Source: a virus
IMG/VR virus record: IMGVR_UViG_3300047481_000178
Span: 1-28,918 of that record
Direction: 5' to 3' (one strand)
DNA length: 28,918 nucleotides
The notes under the pieces were generated by a model. The model was given only the letters and a program-made list of their open reading frames with translations, searched no databases and had not been told where the DNA came from. Positions 1,808 to 23,560 of the stretch are shown here, piece after piece; position 1 is the first letter of the stretch; every line of letters begins with the position of its first letter. Both the position numbers and the translations under genes were made by a program.

Positions 1808-2521
1808 ATGAAAAGCATAACAATAGCAACACCTATGTATGGTGGTATTTGTCATAACTCATATCAAAAAAGCATGTTTTCTTTAATGAATTTGCTTACT
1901 CAAAAAGGATATCGTGTTAATTACTCTGATCTATCAAATGAGTCTTTGATTACAAGAGCAAGAAATACACTAACAGAGATATTTTTAAGAACGGGCAATG
2001 ACTATCTTCTTTTTATTGACGCAGATCAAGGGTTTAATCCAGAAGGTATATTAAAGATGATTGAGGAAGATGTGGACTTAATAGGTGCCGCTGTTCCAAT
2101 GAAAGGAATTAACTGGGATAGGGTACGCTCTGCCGCAAAAGAGGATAAGCCAGATCTTTCTGTCTTTACTGGAGTATATAATGTTAATATTTCAACCGAA
2201 CAAAAACAAAAATTAAAAGAAAATCCAGGCAGCATTGTAGAAGTTGATTATATTGGAACTGGAGTAATGTTGATTAAAAGAGAAGTATTTCAAAAACTCA
2301 AAGAATCTACTCCATCATATAGGTCAGATCAGACAGATATGGCAGGAGTTAAACATGGAGACACAGTTTACAATTTTTGGAGAACAGATATTGATCCAAA
2401 ATCAAAAAGACTTTTATCTGAAGACTATAACTTTTGCAATATGTGGAAAGATCTTGGCGGTAAAATATATTTGGCTCCTTATGTAAAGGTGGTGCATGTT
2501 GGAACATACTGGTTTAAATAA
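1808..2521 (+). CDS. GT-A-fold glycosyltransferase
   Basis: 237 residues, start supported by GGCGGGGGT just upstream of 1808. The N-terminus SITIATPMYGGICHNSYQKS is the first strand and nucleotide-sugar loop of a GT-A enzyme. LLFIDADQGF holds the metal-binding DxD (Asp71-Ala-Asp73). IGTGVMLIKREVF (149-161) and LSEDYNFCNMWKDLGGKIYL (203-222) are the acceptor-side and late-helix elements seen in Anp1/MNN9-like and related phage glycosyltransferases, with His230 near the end as a likely third metal ligand. It should move a sugar from a nucleotide donor in the cytoplasm. Donor and acceptor are unknown. Placed between virion genes, it most plausibly modifies fibre or other virion proteins, less likely a cell-wall precursor. 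Confidence 0.78.
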   Translation: MKSITIATPMYGGICHNSYQKSMFSLMNLLTQKGYRVNYSDLSNESLITRARNTLTEIFLRTGNDYLLFIDADQGFNPEGILKMIEEDVDLIGAAVPMKGINWDRVRSAAKEDKPDLSVFTGVYNVNISTEQKQKLKENPGSIVEVDYIGTGVMLIKREVFQKLKESTPSYRSDQTDMAGVKHGDTVYNFWRTDIDPKSKRLLSEDYNFCNMWKDLGGKIYLAPYVKVVHVGTYWFK

Positions 2522-3233
2522 GATGGATGGGTTTGGTCCCGTATATGTTGTTAATATGGAAAGATCAACTGATCGTAAAAAATATATAGAAGAACATTTT
2601 AAAAAATATGAGGTATCAAATTTTAACTTTGTAAAAGCGGTAGATGGTTCAGAAGAAGATGTGCTAGGTCTACTTAGCCATGGAATTAATGAGTCTGTAA
2701 TCTCAAAAAAAGAAGTTGCCTGTACAATCTCACACTTAAAGGCAATCGAACAATGGCTGGAAGATTCTGATTCTGAATATGCCATTATTGTAGAAGATGA
2801 TGTAAGTTTTGAGACCGTAGATTTTTGGGATTTTACTTGGAAAGATTTTTTAAACTCTATTAAAGATAAATATGATATTTTACAATTGGCTTTGATTAAT
2901 AACTTTACCATCAATAACAGGCTTCACTTAAGAGAATACCTTGACTGGAGTGCAGCGGTATATTTAATAAAAAGATCATATGCCGAACAACTAATCAAAA
3001 AACACAAAATTAACGACAAGTATACTTTAAGCCCAGTTAGTAGATACGGATGCCTTTCTGAAGGAGTTTTATTTAGTCGCTCTTGGTGTTATTCAATACC
3101 GCTTTTTACCTACTCCCTAAACCACGGGTCTTCATTAAATGAAGATCACATTGATACAATTCATAAAAATTCTAAAGATCAAACTATGTCTTATTGGCAG
3201 AATAATGCGGTATTTAAACTAGATTTAATATAA
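2496..3233 (+). CDS. Glycosyltransferase family 25-like protein
   Basis: 245 residues if started at 2496, where AAAGG/AGGTGG lies 3-6 nt upstream. That start overlaps the previous gene by 26 nt. An alternative ATG at 2523, one base after that gene's stop, lacks a Shine-Dalgarno. Family 25 hallmarks: PVYVVNMERSTDRKKYIEEH (15-34), KAVDG, the ACTISHLKAI block (75-84), and the acidic metal motif IIVEDDVSF (97-105). The last third (YLIKRSYAEQLIKK, then GCLSEGVLFSRS) fits the family's C-terminal half. It is a cytoplasmic sugar transferase, co-transcribed with and probably acting after or alongside the 1808 enzyme. The acceptor is unknown: a two-step glycan on a virion protein is the simplest reading. 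Confidence 0.75.
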   Translation: MLEHTGLNKMDGFGPVYVVNMERSTDRKKYIEEHFKKYEVSNFNFVKAVDGSEEDVLGLLSHGINESVISKKEVACTISHLKAIEQWLEDSDSEYAIIVEDDVSFETVDFWDFTWKDFLNSIKDKYDILQLALINNFTINNRLHLREYLDWSAAVYLIKRSYAEQLIKKHKINDKYTLSPVSRYGCLSEGVLFSRSWCYSIPLFTYSLNHGSSLNEDHIDTIHKNSKDQTMSYWQNNAVFKLDLI

Positions 3234-8125: not shown

Positions 8126-10156
8126 ATGTCAGATGTATTTTCTTTTAGGTTATTAGATGAATTTGTAAATAAATATAAAAATGTTGAGTCTCCTTTTGGC
8201 TTTACTGACGCTGGTGGTAACTCTTTAGGTGAGATAACTTTTATCCGTACATATTCAAGAGTCAAAGAAGATGGCACAAAAGAAAGATGGCATGAAGTTT
8301 GTAAGCGGGTAATTGAAGGAATGTATTCTGTTCAAAAGAATCATGCCAAAGAAAACCGCTTGCCTTGGAATGACAATAAAGCACAGAAGTCTGCCCAAGA
8401 AGCCTATGATCGCATGTTTAATCTTAAATGGACTCCACCAGGTCGTGGTCTATGGGCTTTTGGTACCCCTATGACGATGGAGAGGCGCAATTCAGCAGCC
8501 TTACAGAACTGCGCCATGGTTTCTACTAGGGACATCGATAGAAACGATCCTGGAGCCCTTTTTGGCTGGGTTATGGATGCTCTGATGTTGGGGGTAGGAG
8601 TAGGATTTGACACCCTTGGACAAGAAAAGGGTATGGAAATATACCCTAATCAAAAAGAAGAAATAACCTATCAAATACCTGATACAAGAGAAGGATGGGT
8701 AGAGTCTGTAAGACTTCTTATTAATTCATATTTAAAACAAGGTCAGGCTAAGATTAATTTTGATTACTCTTTAATTAGACCATTGGGTGCGCCTATTAAG
8801 GGGTTTGGCGGTACCGCTTCTGGTCCAGAGCCATTGATTAAACTACATGAGACTATTCGTAAAGTAATTGGAAACAGAGCAGGAGAGATTCTTGATTCTC
8901 GTGCAATTGTTGATATTGTAAATCTTATTGGAACTTGTGTAGTTGCTGGTAATGTTCGTCGTTCTGCTACCCTCGCACTTGGAAGCCCATCAGATGATGG
9001 ATTCATTAATTTAAAAAATTCAGAGATGTTTCCAGAGCGCAACTCATTTGATCCAGAAAATCCTGGATGGGCATGGATGAGTAATAATTCTATTTCAGCA
9101 CAAGTTGGAACCAAGTATGAAGACTATATAGATTTAATTGCAGACAATGGAGAGCCAGGATTTATTTGGCTTGACGTTGCTCGTAACTATGGTCGTCTTG
9201 CAGATCCTGCAGATGGAAAAGATTATCGTGTAATGGGCTTTAATCCTTGTGCAGAACAACCACTAGAATCTTATGAACTTTGCACACTTGTTGAAGTACA
9301 TTTAAATCGTCATGAATCTAAAGAAGACTTTTTGCGTACTCTAAAGTTTGCTTATTTATATGGCAAGACTGTTACTCTTGTTCCCACACATTGGCAGATT
9401 ACAAACGGTATTATGCAACGCAATCGCCGTATTGGAACATCTCTCACTGGCATTGCATCTTTTGCAGACCAAAAAGGTTTGCCAGCAGTTCGTGAATGGA
9501 TGGATGAAGGATATAAGACTATTCGTAAATATGATCATTCGTATTCTGAGTGGTTGTGTGTTCGTGAATCTATTCGTGTAACAACTGTTAAGCCTTCAGG
9601 TTCAGTATCGCTTTTATCTGGTGCGACTCCAGGTGTTCATTGGGGTCCAGGAGGAGACTTCTTCCTTCGTGCAATTCGTTTTGGAAATACAGATCCAATG
9701 ATTCATTTATTCAAAGCAGCGGGGTACAAAATGGAGGCAGATCTTGTATCACAAAATACAACCGTTGTATATTTCCCAGTTCATTCTGGTCATCCAAGAT
9801 CTGAAAAAGATGTAACATTATTTGAAAAGATTGCACTTGCTGCAACAACTCAAAAATATTGGTCAGACAATGGTGTTTCTGTTACTCTTTCATTTGATAA
9901 AGAGACAGAGACAAAGCATGTTGCCCCAGCACTTCATATGTATGAGGGTCAACTTAAGGCGGTATCATTCTTACCTATGGGCAATAGGACATATCCACAA
10001 CAGCCATATACACAAATCACAAAAGATGAATATAACTCATATGTTGGAGAAATTAAAAAGATTAATTGGTCTGCAATTTATGACGGTGTAGATAATCTAG
10101 AGGCTCTTGGAGAGGCATATTGCACCACTGATACTTGCGAAATAAAAATATCCTAA
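8126..10156 (+). CDS. nrdJ: Adenosylcobalamin-dependent ribonucleoside-triphosphate reductase (class II, monomeric)
   Basis: 676 residues, a little shorter than the 739 of the Lactobacillus leichmannii enzyme. It reduces NTPs to dNTPs with a thiyl radical made by vitamin B12 coenzyme, supplying DNA precursors without oxygen dependence. Key residues are visible: Cys129 in ALQNCAMVST (substrate-side redox Cys), NPCAEQPLESYELC with the radical Cys375, Glu377 and redox partner Cys386, VTTVKPSGSVSLLSGATPG (486-504) as substrate loop, and the C-terminal CTTDTC (Cys666, Cys671) that shuttles electrons from thioredoxin. RGLWAFGTP (107-115) is a family signature. It appears intact. The ribosome site is weak (GAAAGG, 13 nt before the ATG). 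It interrupts virion genes yet has its own promoter and an upstream terminator, as expected of a moron. Confidence 0.93.
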   Translation: MSDVFSFRLLDEFVNKYKNVESPFGFTDAGGNSLGEITFIRTYSRVKEDGTKERWHEVCKRVIEGMYSVQKNHAKENRLPWNDNKAQKSAQEAYDRMFNLKWTPPGRGLWAFGTPMTMERRNSAALQNCAMVSTRDIDRNDPGALFGWVMDALMLGVGVGFDTLGQEKGMEIYPNQKEEITYQIPDTREGWVESVRLLINSYLKQGQAKINFDYSLIRPLGAPIKGFGGTASGPEPLIKLHETIRKVIGNRAGEILDSRAIVDIVNLIGTCVVAGNVRRSATLALGSPSDDGFINLKNSEMFPERNSFDPENPGWAWMSNNSISAQVGTKYEDYIDLIADNGEPGFIWLDVARNYGRLADPADGKDYRVMGFNPCAEQPLESYELCTLVEVHLNRHESKEDFLRTLKFAYLYGKTVTLVPTHWQITNGIMQRNRRIGTSLTGIASFADQKGLPAVREWMDEGYKTIRKYDHSYSEWLCVRESIRVTTVKPSGSVSLLSGATPGVHWGPGGDFFLRAIRFGNTDPMIHLFKAAGYKMEADLVSQNTTVVYFPVHSGHPRSEKDVTLFEKIALAATTQKYWSDNGVSVTLSFDKETETKHVAPALHMYEGQLKAVSFLPMGNRTYPQQPYTQITKDEYNSYVGEIKKINWSAIYDGVDNLEALGEAYCTTDTCEIKIS

Positions 10157-10157
10157 C

Positions 10158-10166
10158 TGCTATAAT
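10158..10166 (+). promoter_or_regulatory. Extended -10 promoter for the LamG-like virion gene
   Basis: TGCTATAAT begins 1 nt after the reductase stop. The expected start near 10173 leaves AAGGAGA (10174-10180) at the very 5' end of the mRNA, before the ATG at 10184. Confidence 0.55.
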
Positions 10167-15840: not shown

Positions 15841-15849
15841 TGATATAAT
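15841..15849 (+). promoter_or_regulatory. Extended -10 promoter, leaderless start for the protease gene
   Basis: TGATATAAT, with a possible distant -35 (TTGAGA at 15819-15824, 19-nt spacer). The ATG at 15859 is 10 nt past the -10, with no Shine-Dalgarno before it. Confidence 0.55.
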
Positions 15850-15858
15850 TATTCTGCC

Positions 15859-17172
15859 ATGACTATAAATAAAGCACACTGGATTACTGATGGCGACAAT
15901 GTTCGCTTTTCTATGCCAATTGGCAAGATCGATCAAGAGCGCCGTATAGTCTCTGGTTTTGCCACATTAGACAATGTTGATAAGCAAAATGATATTGTAA
16001 CAACAGAAGCAAGCATTGAGGCATTTAAAAAGTTTCGTGGCAATTTGCGTGAAATGCATCAGCCATCTGCGGTAGGCAAAGTTGTTTCTTTTAAAGAAGA
16101 TCGTTATTTTGATCCACAAGTAAAGAAGTTTTATAGTGGAGTATATGTTTCTGCATATATTTCAAAGGGTGCTCAAGACACCTGGGAAAAGGTTCTTGAT
16201 GGTACGCTGACTGGTTTTTCAATCGGCGGGAATATAAAAAAGTTTGATGATTCTTACGATGAACAACTAGATAAAGCAATTAGAGTTATCAAAGAATATG
16301 ATCTACATGAATTGTCACTAGTGGATAATCCAGCAAATCAGTTTGCGAATGTTCTTTCCATTGAAAAGGGAGAACTAGGCGGTTTCCTAGCAAAAACTGT
16401 TGTTGATACAGTCTATTGGTGCAAGCAACATGATATCGTAAGATTGTCAAAAGACTCTGAGGAGTCATGCCCATCATGCAATTGCAATATGCAAAATATT
16501 GGTTTTGTAGAAGATTCAAATGATATAGAAACAGTAAAATTCTTAGTTGATAGTGCAAAAGGCATTAGAACAATTAAGATGACAAAGGAGGAAAACCCTA
16601 TGACAGAAGAAACCACAGTTGTAGACAATGCAGAAATTGCAAAGTCTGACGAAGTTGTTGAAAATGTTGAGGTTGCTCCAGAGGCTCCAGCAGACGCTGT
16701 AGCAGATGCTCCAGCAGCAATTGCTGAAGAAGTACCTGCAGCAGAGCCAGCGGTAGAGGCAGCACCAGAAGCAGTAGATGCTCCAGTTGCTGAAGAAGCA
16801 GCAGAAAAGTCAGTAGATGCAGTTGTTGATGCAACAGCAGAAATTGCAAAGTCTGTTGATGAAATTAATAACTCTCTAACTAATGCCTTGAGCAATCTTG
16901 CAGAAACAGTTAAGGCTATGCAAGCCAATGTTGATGCAATCACAAAGTCCCTTGAAACCGTTACAGGTGAAGTAAAGTCTGTAGCAAGTGAGGTAAGTCA
17001 AGTAAAGGGAACTTTTAATGAGTTTGGAAAGCGAGTAGATGCCGTAGAGCAAGATACTGCTTTCCGCAAGTCTGGCGATCTAGGCGAGATCGTGCAGGAG
17101 TTTTCGGAAATGAAAACTCAAAAATCCCTATGGGGCGGACGTTTCCTCACAAATGCCGACCTATTTAATTAA
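15859..17172 (+). CDS. Prohead protease fused to scaffold
   Basis: 437 residues. Residues 1-165 are an HK97/XkdF-type (S78-like) maturation protease with the likely catalytic His67 in REMHQPSAVG and Ser121 in GTLTGFSIGG, followed by HELSLVDNPAN (150-160). Residues 188-209 hold a CxxH and a CPSCNC cluster (Cys188, His191, Cys204, Cys207) that looks like a zinc ribbon. From residue 248 the protein becomes Ala/Pro/Glu/Val-rich (to about 320) and then a coiled coil (about 330-400) ending in KSLWGGRFLTNADLF: the expected make-up of a scaffold. The enzyme would act inside the procapsid, cutting scaffold and perhaps the capsid protein's N-terminus. A nested start at 16600 probably makes the scaffold alone. 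Leaderless start inferred from the promoter spacing. Confidence 0.85.
   Translation: MTINKAHWITDGDNVRFSMPIGKIDQERRIVSGFATLDNVDKQNDIVTTEASIEAFKKFRGNLREMHQPSAVGKVVSFKEDRYFDPQVKKFYSGVYVSAYISKGAQDTWEKVLDGTLTGFSIGGNIKKFDDSYDEQLDKAIRVIKEYDLHELSLVDNPANQFANVLSIEKGELGGFLAKTVVDTVYWCKQHDIVRLSKDSEESCPSCNCNMQNIGFVEDSNDIETVKFLVDSAKGIRTIKMTKEENPMTEETTVVDNAEIAKSDEVVENVEVAPEAPADAVADAPAAIAEEVPAAEPAVEAAPEAVDAPVAEEAAEKSVDAVVDATAEIAKSVDEINNSLTNALSNLAETVKAMQANVDAITKSLETVTGEVKSVASEVSQVKGTFNEFGKRVDAVEQDTAFRKSGDLGEIVQEFSEMKTQKSLWGGRFLTNADLFN
16584..16591 (+). promoter_or_regulatory. Strong internal ribosome binding site for nested scaffold
   Basis: AAAGGAGG inside the protease frame, 8 nt before the in-frame ATG at 16600. 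It is as strong as the site in front of the major capsid gene, and ideally spaced. Confidence 0.75.
16600..17172 (+). CDS. Nested scaffolding protein (in-frame internal start)
   Basis: 190 residues in the same frame as the protease, beginning at its Met248 (MTEETTVVDNAEIAKSDEVV). The start is supported by AAAGGAGG 8 nt upstream, while the full-length gene has no Shine-Dalgarno. The product would be an acidic, Ala/Pro/Glu-rich stretch followed by a coiled coil (NNSLTNALSNLAETVKAMQA and on) and a short C-terminus with a WGGRF motif that could bind the capsid protein. The same logic is known from lambda, where scaffold Nu3 is the C-terminal part of protease C translated from an internal start. 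The separate product guides shell assembly in large amounts, while the full-length form brings in protease. Production is inferred, not shown. Confidence 0.68.
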   Translation: MTEETTVVDNAEIAKSDEVVENVEVAPEAPADAVADAPAAIAEEVPAAEPAVEAAPEAVDAPVAEEAAEKSVDAVVDATAEIAKSVDEINNSLTNALSNLAETVKAMQANVDAITKSLETVTGEVKSVASEVSQVKGTFNEFGKRVDAVEQDTAFRKSGDLGEIVQEFSEMKTQKSLWGGRFLTNADLFN

Positions 17173-17199
17173 AGGTATATTCACTAGGAGGTGAACAAT

Positions 17200-18333
17200 A
17201 TGTCGGAACAAGAAATAGTAAAGAATTATCCAGGAACTACTGAGGCTCACAATCACGATGGACAAGGTGCATTTGCATCTGGTGGCATCGGAGGAGCAAC
17301 AGCAACAGGTCCTGACGGTAGTCTTTCACCAGCGGCTTCACTCGGTAACATTGCTACAGCCAATTTTGGTTCAAGCGGTGCTAACTCTGTAAGCCCAACT
17401 GGAACACCTGGTGGTATTTTAGCACCAGAACAGGCTCGCCGCTTCATCGACTACGTGTGGGATGCAACAGTTCTCGCCAAAGATGGTCGTAAAGTTACAA
17501 TGCGAGCAAACACCATGGAAATCGAAAAGGTTAACGTTGGTGAGCGTGTAATTCGTGCTGCAGCCCAGGCTGACAACACATACACAAATGCTGGCGCAAC
17601 ATTCACAAAGGTAGAACTAACAACCAAGAAGATTCGTCTTGATTGGGAAGTTTCAACTGAGTCTCTAGAAGACAATATTGAAGGAGGTGCTCTTGAAGAC
17701 CATCTAGTTCGTTTGATGACAAATGCATTCGCAAATGACATCGAAGATCTAGCCATTAATGGTGATGGTTCAACAGGCAACTTCCTTTCAATCATGGAAG
17801 GTTTCGTAAACAAAGTCACAAGCGGTTCAGATGCTCACGAAGCAGTTGTAACTGTCTCTGATGATGAGTGGACACCAACTGTAATGCAGGACATCATTCT
17901 TGCAATGCCACGTAAGTATCGTGCAATTAAGAACAATCTAAAGTTCTATGCTGGTACAGATGCATTCCAGGGTATCGTTAAGAATAACGGTACACTTGCT
18001 GATGCAGTAGCAGAAGCAATTGCTGGAATGACTCCAGGCAGCACACAGGCTAACCGTCAGAATTATCTTGATGGTGTTGGTCAAACACTTGGTGGAGCAC
18101 GTACAACACGTGTTCTCGGTGTTGACGTTATGGAAGTACCTTACTACCCAGCAGATTATGTCGACTTGACATTCCCTGCAAACCGTGTTTGGGGCTTCCA
18201 ACGTGATATCACAGTAAATCGTGAATACAAGCCAAAGAAGGATACAATTGAATACACAGTATTCGTCCGCTTTGGTTTACAATGGGAAGAACTCGATGCA
18301 GTATCTTATGCAGATGCAGCATCTGATTCCTAA
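17200..18333 (+). CDS. Major capsid protein (HK97 fold) with N-terminal HxHDG extension
   Basis: 377 residues. ATG 17200 is chosen because AGGAGGT (17186-17192) sits 7 nt before it; a GTG at 17191 is part of that site. The HK97-fold body starts at about residue 65 (GGILAPEQARRFIDYVWDAT), with E-loop and spine segments around KVELTTKKIRLDWEVSTESL, P-domain helices (EGGALEDHLVRLMTNAFAND), and the A-domain (NLKFYAGTDAFQGIV, VLGVDVMEVPYYPADYV, VWGFQRDITVNREYKPKKDT). Residues 9-58 are an extra Gly-rich arm (YPGTTEAHNHDGQGAFASGG, then LGNIATANFG) copied in the separate 18404 gene. Codons lean to CGT for Arg and AAC/GAC, as in a highly expressed gene. It follows the scaffold by 27 nt with no promoter of its own. 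Confidence 0.92.
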   Translation: MSEQEIVKNYPGTTEAHNHDGQGAFASGGIGGATATGPDGSLSPAASLGNIATANFGSSGANSVSPTGTPGGILAPEQARRFIDYVWDATVLAKDGRKVTMRANTMEIEKVNVGERVIRAAAQADNTYTNAGATFTKVELTTKKIRLDWEVSTESLEDNIEGGALEDHLVRLMTNAFANDIEDLAINGDGSTGNFLSIMEGFVNKVTSGSDAHEAVVTVSDDEWTPTVMQDIILAMPRKYRAIKNNLKFYAGTDAFQGIVKNNGTLADAVAEAIAGMTPGSTQANRQNYLDGVGQTLGGARTTRVLGVDVMEVPYYPADYVDLTFPANRVWGFQRDITVNREYKPKKDTIEYTVFVRFGLQWEELDAVSYADAASDS

Positions 18334-18355
18334 TTAAAACTGAATAATAAGATCG

Positions 18356-18383
18356 AGGAGGGTAGCGTAAAAACTACCCTCCT
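18356..18383 (+). other. Stable hairpin between capsid gene and its small paralog
   Basis: AGGAGGGTAG (18356-18365) pairs perfectly with CTACCCTCCT (18374-18383) around an 8-nt loop. Only TT follows, so it is a poor intrinsic terminator. It may protect the 3' end of the capsid mRNA or act as a leaky terminator, lowering expression of the 18404 gene. The left arm hides an AGGAGG. Confidence 0.7.
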
Positions 18384-18403
18384 TAATCACATTAAGGATT
18401 AAA

Positions 18404-18613
18404 ATGTCTTATCCAGGAACTTCAGAAGATCATCAACACGATGGTGAAGGATGTATCGCCGTTGGGGGTATTGGAACAATCATTAGTGGTCCTAATGGAA
18501 TAATTACACAAAGATATGCTCTTGGATCTATCCCAGAAGCAAATTTTGGAGAAAATATAATTATGAGTGGAACTCCAGCGGGAGTTAAAAGACCACAAAG
18601 TTTATACAAATAA
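18404..18613 (+). CDS. Stand-alone paralog of the capsid protein's N-terminal extension
   Basis: 69 residues, AAGGA 6 nt before the ATG. Nearly the whole protein aligns with capsid residues 10-75. SYPGTSEDHQHDGEG matches NYPGTTEAHNHDGQG; VGGIGTIISGPNG matches SGGIGGATATGPDG; ALGSIPEANFG matches SLGNIATANFG; MSGTPAGVKRPQ matches PTGTPGGILAPEQ. His10, His12, Asp13 and Gly14 of the HxHDG motif are kept. It therefore lacks the HK97 fold but keeps the whole arm. It lies directly after the capsid gene, behind the 18356-18383 hairpin, and may be a minor capsid, decoration or assembly-control protein that occupies the same site as the arm. A decaying duplication is the alternative, but the intact frame and ribosome site argue against it. 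Confidence 0.72.
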   Translation: MSYPGTSEDHQHDGEGCIAVGGIGTIISGPNGIITQRYALGSIPEANFGENIIMSGTPAGVKRPQSLYK

Positions 18614-18621
18614 TGTAATTC

Positions 18622-18630
18622 TGATATAAT
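18622..18630 (+). promoter_or_regulatory. Extended -10 promoter for the connector operon
   Basis: TGATATAAT 8 nt after the stop of the 18404 gene. The expected start near 18637 puts GGAGGA (18637-18642) at the very 5' end of the mRNA, before the ATG at 18646. It drives the TAATG-linked genes to 21686. Confidence 0.58.
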
Positions 18631-18645: not shown

Positions 18646-18999
18646 ATGTCAATAGAATTAGTAGAAGATTTAAAAAAGAAAACAGTGCCACAATTAAAGG
18701 CATATGCAAAGAAAAATAATATAGATTTATTTGGAGTAAACACAAAAATAGAAATATTAGAAGTAATATTTTCTTTTATTCCAAGACCAGAGCAAATTGA
18801 AAAAGCCAAAAATAAAGATAAACCAACTGAAAAAATTGCTTTATATTCTATGAAAAATCTTCATTGGAATGGTGTTGGAGATCTTGAAAATGGTTATAAT
18901 ATTTTAAGCAAGGAGGATTCGGAAAAATGGCTTACTCGTAGGGATGTGCGAATAGCAACTCCAGACGAAGTAGCGAAATTTTACCGTAAAAAGAAATAA
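18646..18999 (+). CDS. SAP/HeH-like small head protein
   Basis: 117 residues; GGAGGA 3 nt before the ATG. Residues 9-45 (KKKTVPQLKAYAKKNNIDLF, then TKIEILEVIFSFI) have the helix-extended loop-helix pattern of SAP/HeH-type domains, which bind nucleic acid or protein. After a charged linker, residues 65-117 (ALYSMKNLHWNGVGDLENGY, then SKEDSEKWLTRRDVRIATPD) match a module commonly found in small proteins between the capsid and connector genes of actinobacterial siphoviruses. Soluble, basic at the end (KFYRKKK). Its role is probably in head completion or packaged-DNA contact. First gene of a TAATG chain with the next one. The domain names are from pattern memory and need a profile search. Confidence 0.55.
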   Translation: MSIELVEDLKKKTVPQLKAYAKKNNIDLFGVNTKIEILEVIFSFIPRPEQIEKAKNKDKPTEKIALYSMKNLHWNGVGDLENGYNILSKEDSEKWLTRRDVRIATPDEVAKFYRKKK

Positions 19000-22449: not shown

Positions 22450-23169
22450 ATGGCTACAGAAGTTTATAACAAAGATAATATTTTATTAATTGATGGAACA
22501 GAAATAGAAATTATTCCATTAAAAATAAAATATTTAAGAGAATTTATGAAAACATTCTCTGGAATAAAAAATACAACAACTGATGATGAAGCCATAGAAG
22601 TTTTAGCAAAATGTGTTCAAGTATGTATGAAACAGTATTATCCACCAATATCCAAAAACTTGGAAACAGTTGAAGATAGCATTGATCTGCCAACAATATA
22701 CAAGATAGTTGATATTGCTGCGGGTATAAAAATAAACAAAAAATCAGAAGAACCTGTAAAAGATCAAGCAGTAGATAGTGGATCTACATGGGATAATCTA
22801 GATTTGGCAAAATTAGAATCAGAAACATTTTTGCTGGGTATATGGAAAGACTATCAAGAATTAGAAGAATCATTGTCTATGCCCGAATTATTGGCTACAT
22901 TAATGATAAAAAGAGAATTAGATCATACAGAGAAAAAGTTTTTGGCTGCTCTGCAAGGTGTAAATTTAGACGATCAAGGATCTGACGGACAGGTGCGGGG
23001 ACAAAAAGAATGGGAAGACCTAAAGGCTAGAGTCTTTAGTAGGGGGCAAACAAAAGATAGTAATGATGTTTTATCTCTTCAGGGTCCAAAAGCAAAAAAA
23101 ACTGGGTTTGGAATTGGCATGGGGCTAGACTATGAAGATATGCGTGATCCTTCAGTAATGAAACAGTAA
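22450..23169 (+). CDS. Tail assembly chaperone, long (GT-like) form
   Basis: 239 residues from ATG 22450; an upstream in-frame GTG at 22417 lies inside the terminator and is rejected. Residues 1-98 (LLIDGTEIEIIPLKIKYLRE, CVQVCMKQYYP, SIDLPTIYKIVDIAAGIKI) are the G-like domain and match the next gene along their length. Residues 115-180 (DNLDLAKLESETFLLGIWKD, then SMPELLATLMIKRELDHTEK) form the T-like domain, with a basic, disordered tail. In most siphoviruses this long protein is made by ribosomal frameshifting from a short gene. Here it is one open frame. It should coat the tape measure and recruit tube subunits during tail assembly. Its Arg codons are mostly AGA/AGG, unlike the tube and short form. 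Confidence 0.75.
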   Translation: MATEVYNKDNILLIDGTEIEIIPLKIKYLREFMKTFSGIKNTTTDDEAIEVLAKCVQVCMKQYYPPISKNLETVEDSIDLPTIYKIVDIAAGIKINKKSEEPVKDQAVDSGSTWDNLDLAKLESETFLLGIWKDYQELEESLSMPELLATLMIKRELDHTEKKFLAALQGVNLDDQGSDGQVRGQKEWEDLKARVFSRGQTKDSNDVLSLQGPKAKKTGFGIGMGLDYEDMRDPSVMKQ

Positions 23170-23230: not shown

Positions 23231-23560
23231 ATGGCAACAACCGTACACGAGGGTGAAGAACTTGTTCTCATGGATGGTACAAAGATTACAGTGAGACCTT
23301 TAAAAATCTCACTTCTTCGTGCTTTCATGAAAAAGTTTGAGGGTATTGCAGCAGTCGCAGAAGACAATGATAAGTCTACTGATCTTCTGATGGAATGTGT
23401 TCAAATTGCTATGCAACAGTACAATCCAGAACTTGCAGATAAGGCTAAACTAGAAGATGTTTTAGATCTTCCATCAGTTTACAAGATTATCGAAGCAGCA
23501 TCTGGTGTAAAACTCGCTGACGCTAATGCGCTGTTAAATACAGTATTAGCAAATAATTAA
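23231..23560 (+). CDS. Tail assembly chaperone, short (G-like) form
   Basis: 109 residues from ATG 23231, set by AAGGAGG at ideal spacing; an ATG at 23204 would place that site inside the gene. It aligns with the first 98 residues of the 22450 protein: VLMDGTKITVRPLKISLLRA with LLIDGTEIEIIPLKIKYLRE, ECVQIAMQQYNP with KCVQVCMKQYYP, LDLPSVYKIIEAASGVKL with IDLPTIYKIVDIAAGIKI. It ends shortly after, without the T-like domain. Its Arg/Asp codon choice resembles the capsid and tube genes. It should be the abundant G-type chaperone that works with the long form on the tape measure encoded 22 nt downstream. Confidence 0.78.
   Translation: MATTVHEGEELVLMDGTKITVRPLKISLLRAFMKKFEGIAAVAEDNDKSTDLLMECVQIAMQQYNPELADKAKLEDVLDLPSVYKIIEAASGVKLADANALLNTVLANN

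Follow-up and report, generated by a model that had tools for sequence, protein, structure and literature searches.

Accessory and capsid-derived proteins of phage heads

In lambda (C/Nu3) and in herpesviruses (UL26/UL26.5), one morphogenetic module is made in a fused and in a free form from overlapping reading frames, the modules being scaffold domains. Capsid decoration or cement proteins, such as lambda gpD, T4 Soc and phage L Dec, are accessory and not universal among related phages, and some of them attach by means of extended N-terminal arms (PMC7602432). In T4, the vertex protein gp24 is a paralogue of the major capsid protein (MCP) gp23, from which the T4 protease cuts off a 65-residue N-terminal region (PMC9958956). 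The HxH iron-binding proteins of phage fibres and spikes include T4 gp37, P2 gpV and the R-pyocin fibre (PMC6116203, PMC11705849), and three-fold HxH metal sites are known in both kinds of structure (PMC6116203).

The window studied here is the whole stretch of 28,918 nucleotides of the viral record IMGVR_UViG_3300047481_000178. Downstream of its MCP gene there is a small gene (18404..18613, + strand) whose 69-residue product consists of a free copy of the MCP N-terminal arm followed by a basic C-terminal tail. As in C/Nu3 and UL26/UL26.5, one module exists both within a larger head protein and alone, but here the free form is a separate, diverged gene and it is a capsid arm that has been copied. 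Like T4 gp24, the small gene is a second capsid-derived gene arising from duplication of the MCP; unlike gp24, which is a full-length capsomer subunit, it copies the arm module alone, without the fold. The HxH motif of the fibre and spike proteins is present in 83 of 93 distinct MCP/small pairs, including that of the window. However, those proteins are trimeric tail components, some with repeated HxH, whereas here a capsid protein and the free copy of its arm have one HxH each.

The small gene shares with decoration proteins its small size, its accessory nature (its slot is empty in 48 of 77 MCP relatives) and its position in a promoter-bounded unit with the protease and MCP genes. Its product differs from them in having no sequence match to any known decoration family in Pfam, PHROG or PDB, and therefore membership of this class is not established. 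No decoration protein paralogous to the MCP's own arm was found described, nor was any description of a free capsid-arm gene found in the open-licence literature, which agrees with the first-pass annotation of this DNA, where no such system was known. Judged by sequence comparison, this co-evolving free copy of a capsid arm is real, conserved and unusual.

The major capsid protein and the head protease

The MCP gene (17200..18333, + strand) encodes 377 residues from an ATG that is preceded by AGGAGG and is probably the true start, rather than the GTG at 17191, which could also be used. Residues 70-374 match phrog_1623 (E 1.1e-72). The core of the protein is 41-45% identical to annotated MCPs of Streptomyces phages of the Stanwilliamsviridae (BillNye, Sham, Coruscant), which also have a similar portal-protease-MCP gene order. 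However, these phages lack both the arm module and the small gene: their MCPs have only a short N-terminus, and the arm module appears as an insertion between 'VKN' and 'ILAPEQARRFIDY'. As delimited by alignment of MCP N-termini, the module (17224..17436, + strand) comprises about 65-70 residues with the pattern YPG..HNHDG..LGNI..ANFG..GTPGG. It lies outside the phrog_1623 match region and is the most variable section of the MCP, the rest being 81%-conserved. AlphaFold models of single chains from shallow alignments reached a pLDDT of 34 for the MCP and 52 for the small protein, values too low for a fold to be read from them or for a choice among the candidate roles named in the first-pass annotation, namely decoration, competition with the arm, and control of shell size or of pentamer/hexamer identity.

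The gene just upstream (15859..17172, + strand) codes for an S78-like head maturation protease (phrog_9427, E 1.5e-122; Pfam Peptidase_S78, E 2.2e-6) with an Ala/Glu-rich C-terminal part that contains coiled-coil and may be scaffold-like. By analogy with the N-terminus of T4 gp23, this protease might remove the MCP arm, and the small gene would then add a free propeptide in trans as an internal scaffold, comparable to a protease-scaffold gene accompanied by a free copy of its scaffold. The neighbouring protease gene, the absence of the arm from the related Streptomyces-phage MCPs and the size of the segment removed from gp23, which is near that of the arm (PMC9958956), are consistent with this possibility. 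Nevertheless, it is distinctly unlikely: the long C-terminal part of the protease would already provide a scaffold-like segment, and the idea does not account for the basic tail on the small protein. Scaffold propeptides are helical, unlike the Gly/Pro-rich arm.

A free copy of the capsid arm

The open reading frame of the small gene runs from an ATG to a TAA. In phmmer searches, residues 2-66 of its product align with MCP residues 12-81 in 380-residue numbering (domain conditional E 2.6e-14, 46 bits). When the MCP was used as query against the window record, the small reading frame was matched with an E value of 1.8e-14 and 45% identity over MCP residues 9-82. The alignment covers the arm and no part of the conserved core that follows it in the MCP, so that the whole capsid-protein core is not carried; a second match, to MCP residues 95-126, is not significant (conditional E 7.9). 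A profile of the small-protein family scored a median of 45.8 bits on 67 real arms (lowest 15.6), compared with a maximum of 12.1 bits on 6,697 shuffled arms. The Smith-Waterman score of the window pair is 151, versus 28.8 ± 5.5 (maximum 56) after shuffling. These controls rule out a composition artefact as the source of the similarity, and the paralogy to the MCP arm claimed in the first-pass annotation is thus confirmed. Residues 10-12 of the small protein, HQH (18431..18439, + strand), are in register with the HNH of the MCP arm.

The earlier description of the product as a copy of the capsid arm has to be extended, since the arm is aligned end to end but the small protein carries in addition a basic C-terminal tail that the MCP arm lacks. 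In all 64 distinct small proteins measured, the last 14 residues have a net charge of +2 to +5. The ribosome site that had been noted for the gene is present, although AAGGAT, the form found in the window, is weak; most relatives have a site of the AGGAG type.

The cassette slot

The small gene is the gene next to that of the MCP, but it does not strictly abut it, as first described: a gap of 70 nt (64-76 nt in relatives) separates them and contains an RNA hairpin, GAGGAGGGTAG..CTACCCTCCTT (18354..18384, + strand), with an 11-bp consensus stem. Compensatory changes are found at 8 of the 11 pairs among 24 loci, and the hairpin is kept in relatives whether the small gene is present or absent. 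Its T-run is short, which would make it at best a weak intrinsic terminator. It is possibly an attenuator, or a stabiliser of the mRNA 3' end, that fixes the ratio of MCP to small protein.

Extended -10 motifs of the form TGNTATAAT occur eight times in the window (620, 3241, 6401, 10158, 15841, 18622, 21693 and 23193), against a mean of 2.4 expected, all on the + strand and each just 5' of a gene. They are probably promoters of the phage that split its late region into separate units. The copy ahead of the protease gene, TGATATAAT (15841..15849, + strand), is proposed as the start of a transcription unit comprising the protease, MCP and small genes, since the following one (18622..18630, + strand), which would belong to the next operon, lies 8 nt past the small-gene stop and forms the right border of the cassette. 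Transcription would probably extend into the small gene only when it continues through the hairpin. Where it is absent, as in locus L034, the hairpin is directly followed by the promoter motif (CACATT/CTGATATAAT), indicating that the small gene is a clean cassette in a hairpin-promoter slot. The slot is flanked by a gene for a 117-residue protein (18646..18999, + strand) whose N-terminus is Rho_N/SAP-like (Rho_N, E 1.1e-3, below the Pfam cut-off); this gene occupies the same position in relatives whether or not they have the small gene.

Distribution, origin and selection

When viral contigs were scanned, an MCP was found at 486 loci and the small gene at 347, many of these being overlapping views of the same contigs. 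After reduction, 93 distinct MCP/small pairs were left, in which the small gene lies directly behind that of the MCP. The relatives of the small gene were all found on metagenomic contigs; neither the arm nor the small protein was found in isolated phages (INPHARED) or in Pfam, PHROGs or PDB, where the small protein has no significant sequence match. With respect to hosts, a scan of genome contigs with the MCP profile returned one short contig, lacking the small gene and binned with an Actinomycetota MAG. Together with the kinship to Streptomyces phages, this suggests that the hosts of these uncultured viruses are actinobacterial.

Of 77 loci retrieved with the MCP as the sole query, 29 carry the small gene and 48 have an empty slot, the latter including close relatives whose MCP is 94% identical. 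Absence from relatives had been named as a sign of a decaying duplicate. The gene is indeed absent from many of them, but the slots are cleanly empty and not occupied by broken copies, which indicates that it is dispensable and mobile rather than decaying. In the contigs searched, MCP relatives with an empty slot contain no copy of the module elsewhere, and none was found outside the MCP and small genes in 19 whole contigs of 41-114 kb. A generic virion motif, the other objection foreseen to the paralogy, is thus rejected, the module being restricted to these two genes.

The only truncated small genes seen are those of L449 and L098. In L449 (1400-1880), a deletion that reaches from the 3' end region of the MCP gene to midway through the small gene has fused the two, and the sequence is possibly a chimera. 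In L098 (3494-6007), most of the MCP gene is repeated in tandem with identical DNA, and a truncated small gene lies at the junction; this repeat, which looks perfect and is probably an assembly artefact, was not taken as an evolutionary intermediate.

The small proteins form one clade apart from all arms (support 100/99), which points to a single old duplication and rules out repeated recent ones. By this tree, the duplication is followed by several losses or transfers of the gene. Its pairwise dN/dS has a median of 0.43 and exceeds 1 in just 2% of pairs, with 0.27 for the arms and about 0.12-0.39 for the window gene compared with near relatives. The small gene is under purifying selection.

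Duplications are known to leave fragments, and a gene absent from many relatives could be a non-functional remnant of the MCP duplication. This explanation is scarcely credible in view of the purifying selection, the 93 distinct intact pairs and the single ancient origin, the L449 fusion being the sole internally truncated copy; the selection and the many intact copies rule out a decaying duplicate. That the small gene is paralogous to the arm, intact, under selection and always located beside the MCP gene indicates a working part and not debris, as the first reading of the sequence had proposed. The patchy, mobile occurrence of a protein that mimics a capsid fragment could also be understood if it were a dominant-negative factor poisoning the capsid assembly of competing phages or satellites. 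Such a role is very improbable, however, for a gene located in the late capsid unit whose motif and register are matched to the arm of its own phage.

Matched evolution of the arm and its free copy

The HxH motif is either shared by arm and small protein or missing from both in 93 of 93 distinct pairs (83 with, 10 without), and wherever it is present the offset between a conserved Tyr and HxH is equal in the two copies (83/83; 55 pairs at 8 and 28 at 7). Pairs without HxH have instead an N-(G/S/A)-x-G motif (LNGxG variants) common to both. On a capsid-core tree, four changes are placed in the arm and four in the small protein, with 93/93 rows concordant; the match of motif and register therefore rests on about four evolutionary changes, with 1-3 phylogenetically independent pairs. 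Distances agree with this picture. In partial Mantel tests given the core and the other halves, which remove shared ancestry only partly, the N-terminal half of the arm correlates with that of the small protein (r=0.46, p=0.0005) and the C-terminal half with its counterpart (r=0.52), compared with r=-0.08 (arm-N vs small-C) and r=0.13 (arm-C vs small-N) for mismatched halves.

Gene conversion was rejected as the cause of the match, there being no surplus of identical codons with the own arm: the same-codon fraction at identical residues is 0.437 with the own arm, 0.445 with other arms and 0.416 by codon-usage expectation. The matched motif and register strongly suggest that the role of the small protein is tied to the capsid arm, as had been supposed, and the matched change of both copies suggests incorporation of the free copy into the phage head, next to the arm. 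The two could also be matched via a common third partner and not by mutual binding.

The window offers one particular case, read from branches whose support is limited on about 70 columns. Its MCP arm falls with those of the L034-L042 set (support 98/91), where the spacing is 7 and the small gene is absent, while its small protein falls with the L002/L003/L014 set (support 85/95), where the spacing is 8. The spacing in the window small protein is nevertheless 7, equal to that of its own arm. The simplest reading would be that recombination brought in the cassette and that the loss of one residue later adapted it to the resident capsid.

A common external ligand would also produce a match between the copies, if arm and free copy were both displayed outside the shell and bound a metal or a host ligand. 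Iron is indeed bound by HxH motifs in the trimeric fibre and spike proteins of phages (PMC6116203, PMC11705849), and the arm is more variable than any other section of the MCP. We regard such an adhesion module as quite improbable: there is one HxH only, it is missing in ten distinct pairs that retain the small gene, and PDB sequence searches with the MCP and small profiles gave nothing significant, a trimeric fibre fold being only hypothetical.

Possible roles in the phage head

The reading that we favor, with a probability of about 0.5, is that the small protein is an optional minor capsid or decoration protein placed beside MCP arms or filling open arm sites in the shell. The small gene would be expressed in one late transcription unit with the head protease and the MCP, and its product would be incorporated into the head, where it may contact an MCP arm or substitute for it. 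Its N-terminal segment, YPG...HxH, would share the register of the MCP arms, the HxH of arm and small protein may bind metal, and the basic tail would hold an acidic partner, for instance DNA or the shell. In a more specific form, which is offered as a tentative possibility, the capsid arm would be supplied in trans: free arms would intercalate with MCP arms at matching register, perhaps at local three-fold sites, in mixed trimers bridged by a metal bound to HxH, as an optional, swappable reinforcement with a register lock to the capsid.

A free arm with the register of the MCP arm could alternatively occupy the docking site of the arm on MCP subunits during assembly, where it would slow or adjust the closing of the shell as a chaperone or competitor, and would be missing from the finished virion. 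The position of the gene in one unit with the protease and MCP genes fits such a regulator, and the hairpin between MCP and small gene could hold the small protein at substoichiometric levels. However, many close relatives, with 94% MCP identity, have an empty slot, and no copy was found elsewhere in contigs of MCP relatives whose slot is empty, which makes this role unlikely.

If the minor capsid or decoration reading is true, the small gene would represent a route to accessory capsid proteins for which no description was found, in which the MCP's own arm is copied as a separate gene and yields an optional part pre-fitted to the lattice. The register-matched variants found in nature, which differ in spacing (7 or 8), in motif (HxH or LNGxG) and in whether the small gene is present or its slot cleanly empty, constitute natural experiments on the use of the capsid arm, spanning many uncultured, probably actinobacterial, viruses.

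Other genes in the window

The products of 22450-23169 (239 residues) and 23231-23560 (109 residues) both belong to phrog_10504, and the shorter one is 44% identical to residues 1-95 of the longer and also weakly matches a profile of tail assembly chaperones. The two resemble a tail assembly chaperone pair made from separate genes and not by frameshifting, and the shorter gene would be another case in this genome of an N-terminal domain copied as a free protein. The 171-residue protein encoded by 638-1153 has weak similarity to the head decoration family phrog_122 (E 1.8e-4) and is possibly a second, conventional decoration protein. A B12-dependent ribonucleotide reductase and two glycosyltransferase-like genes (8126-10159 and 1808-3233) are located between genes of the tail-fibre type.
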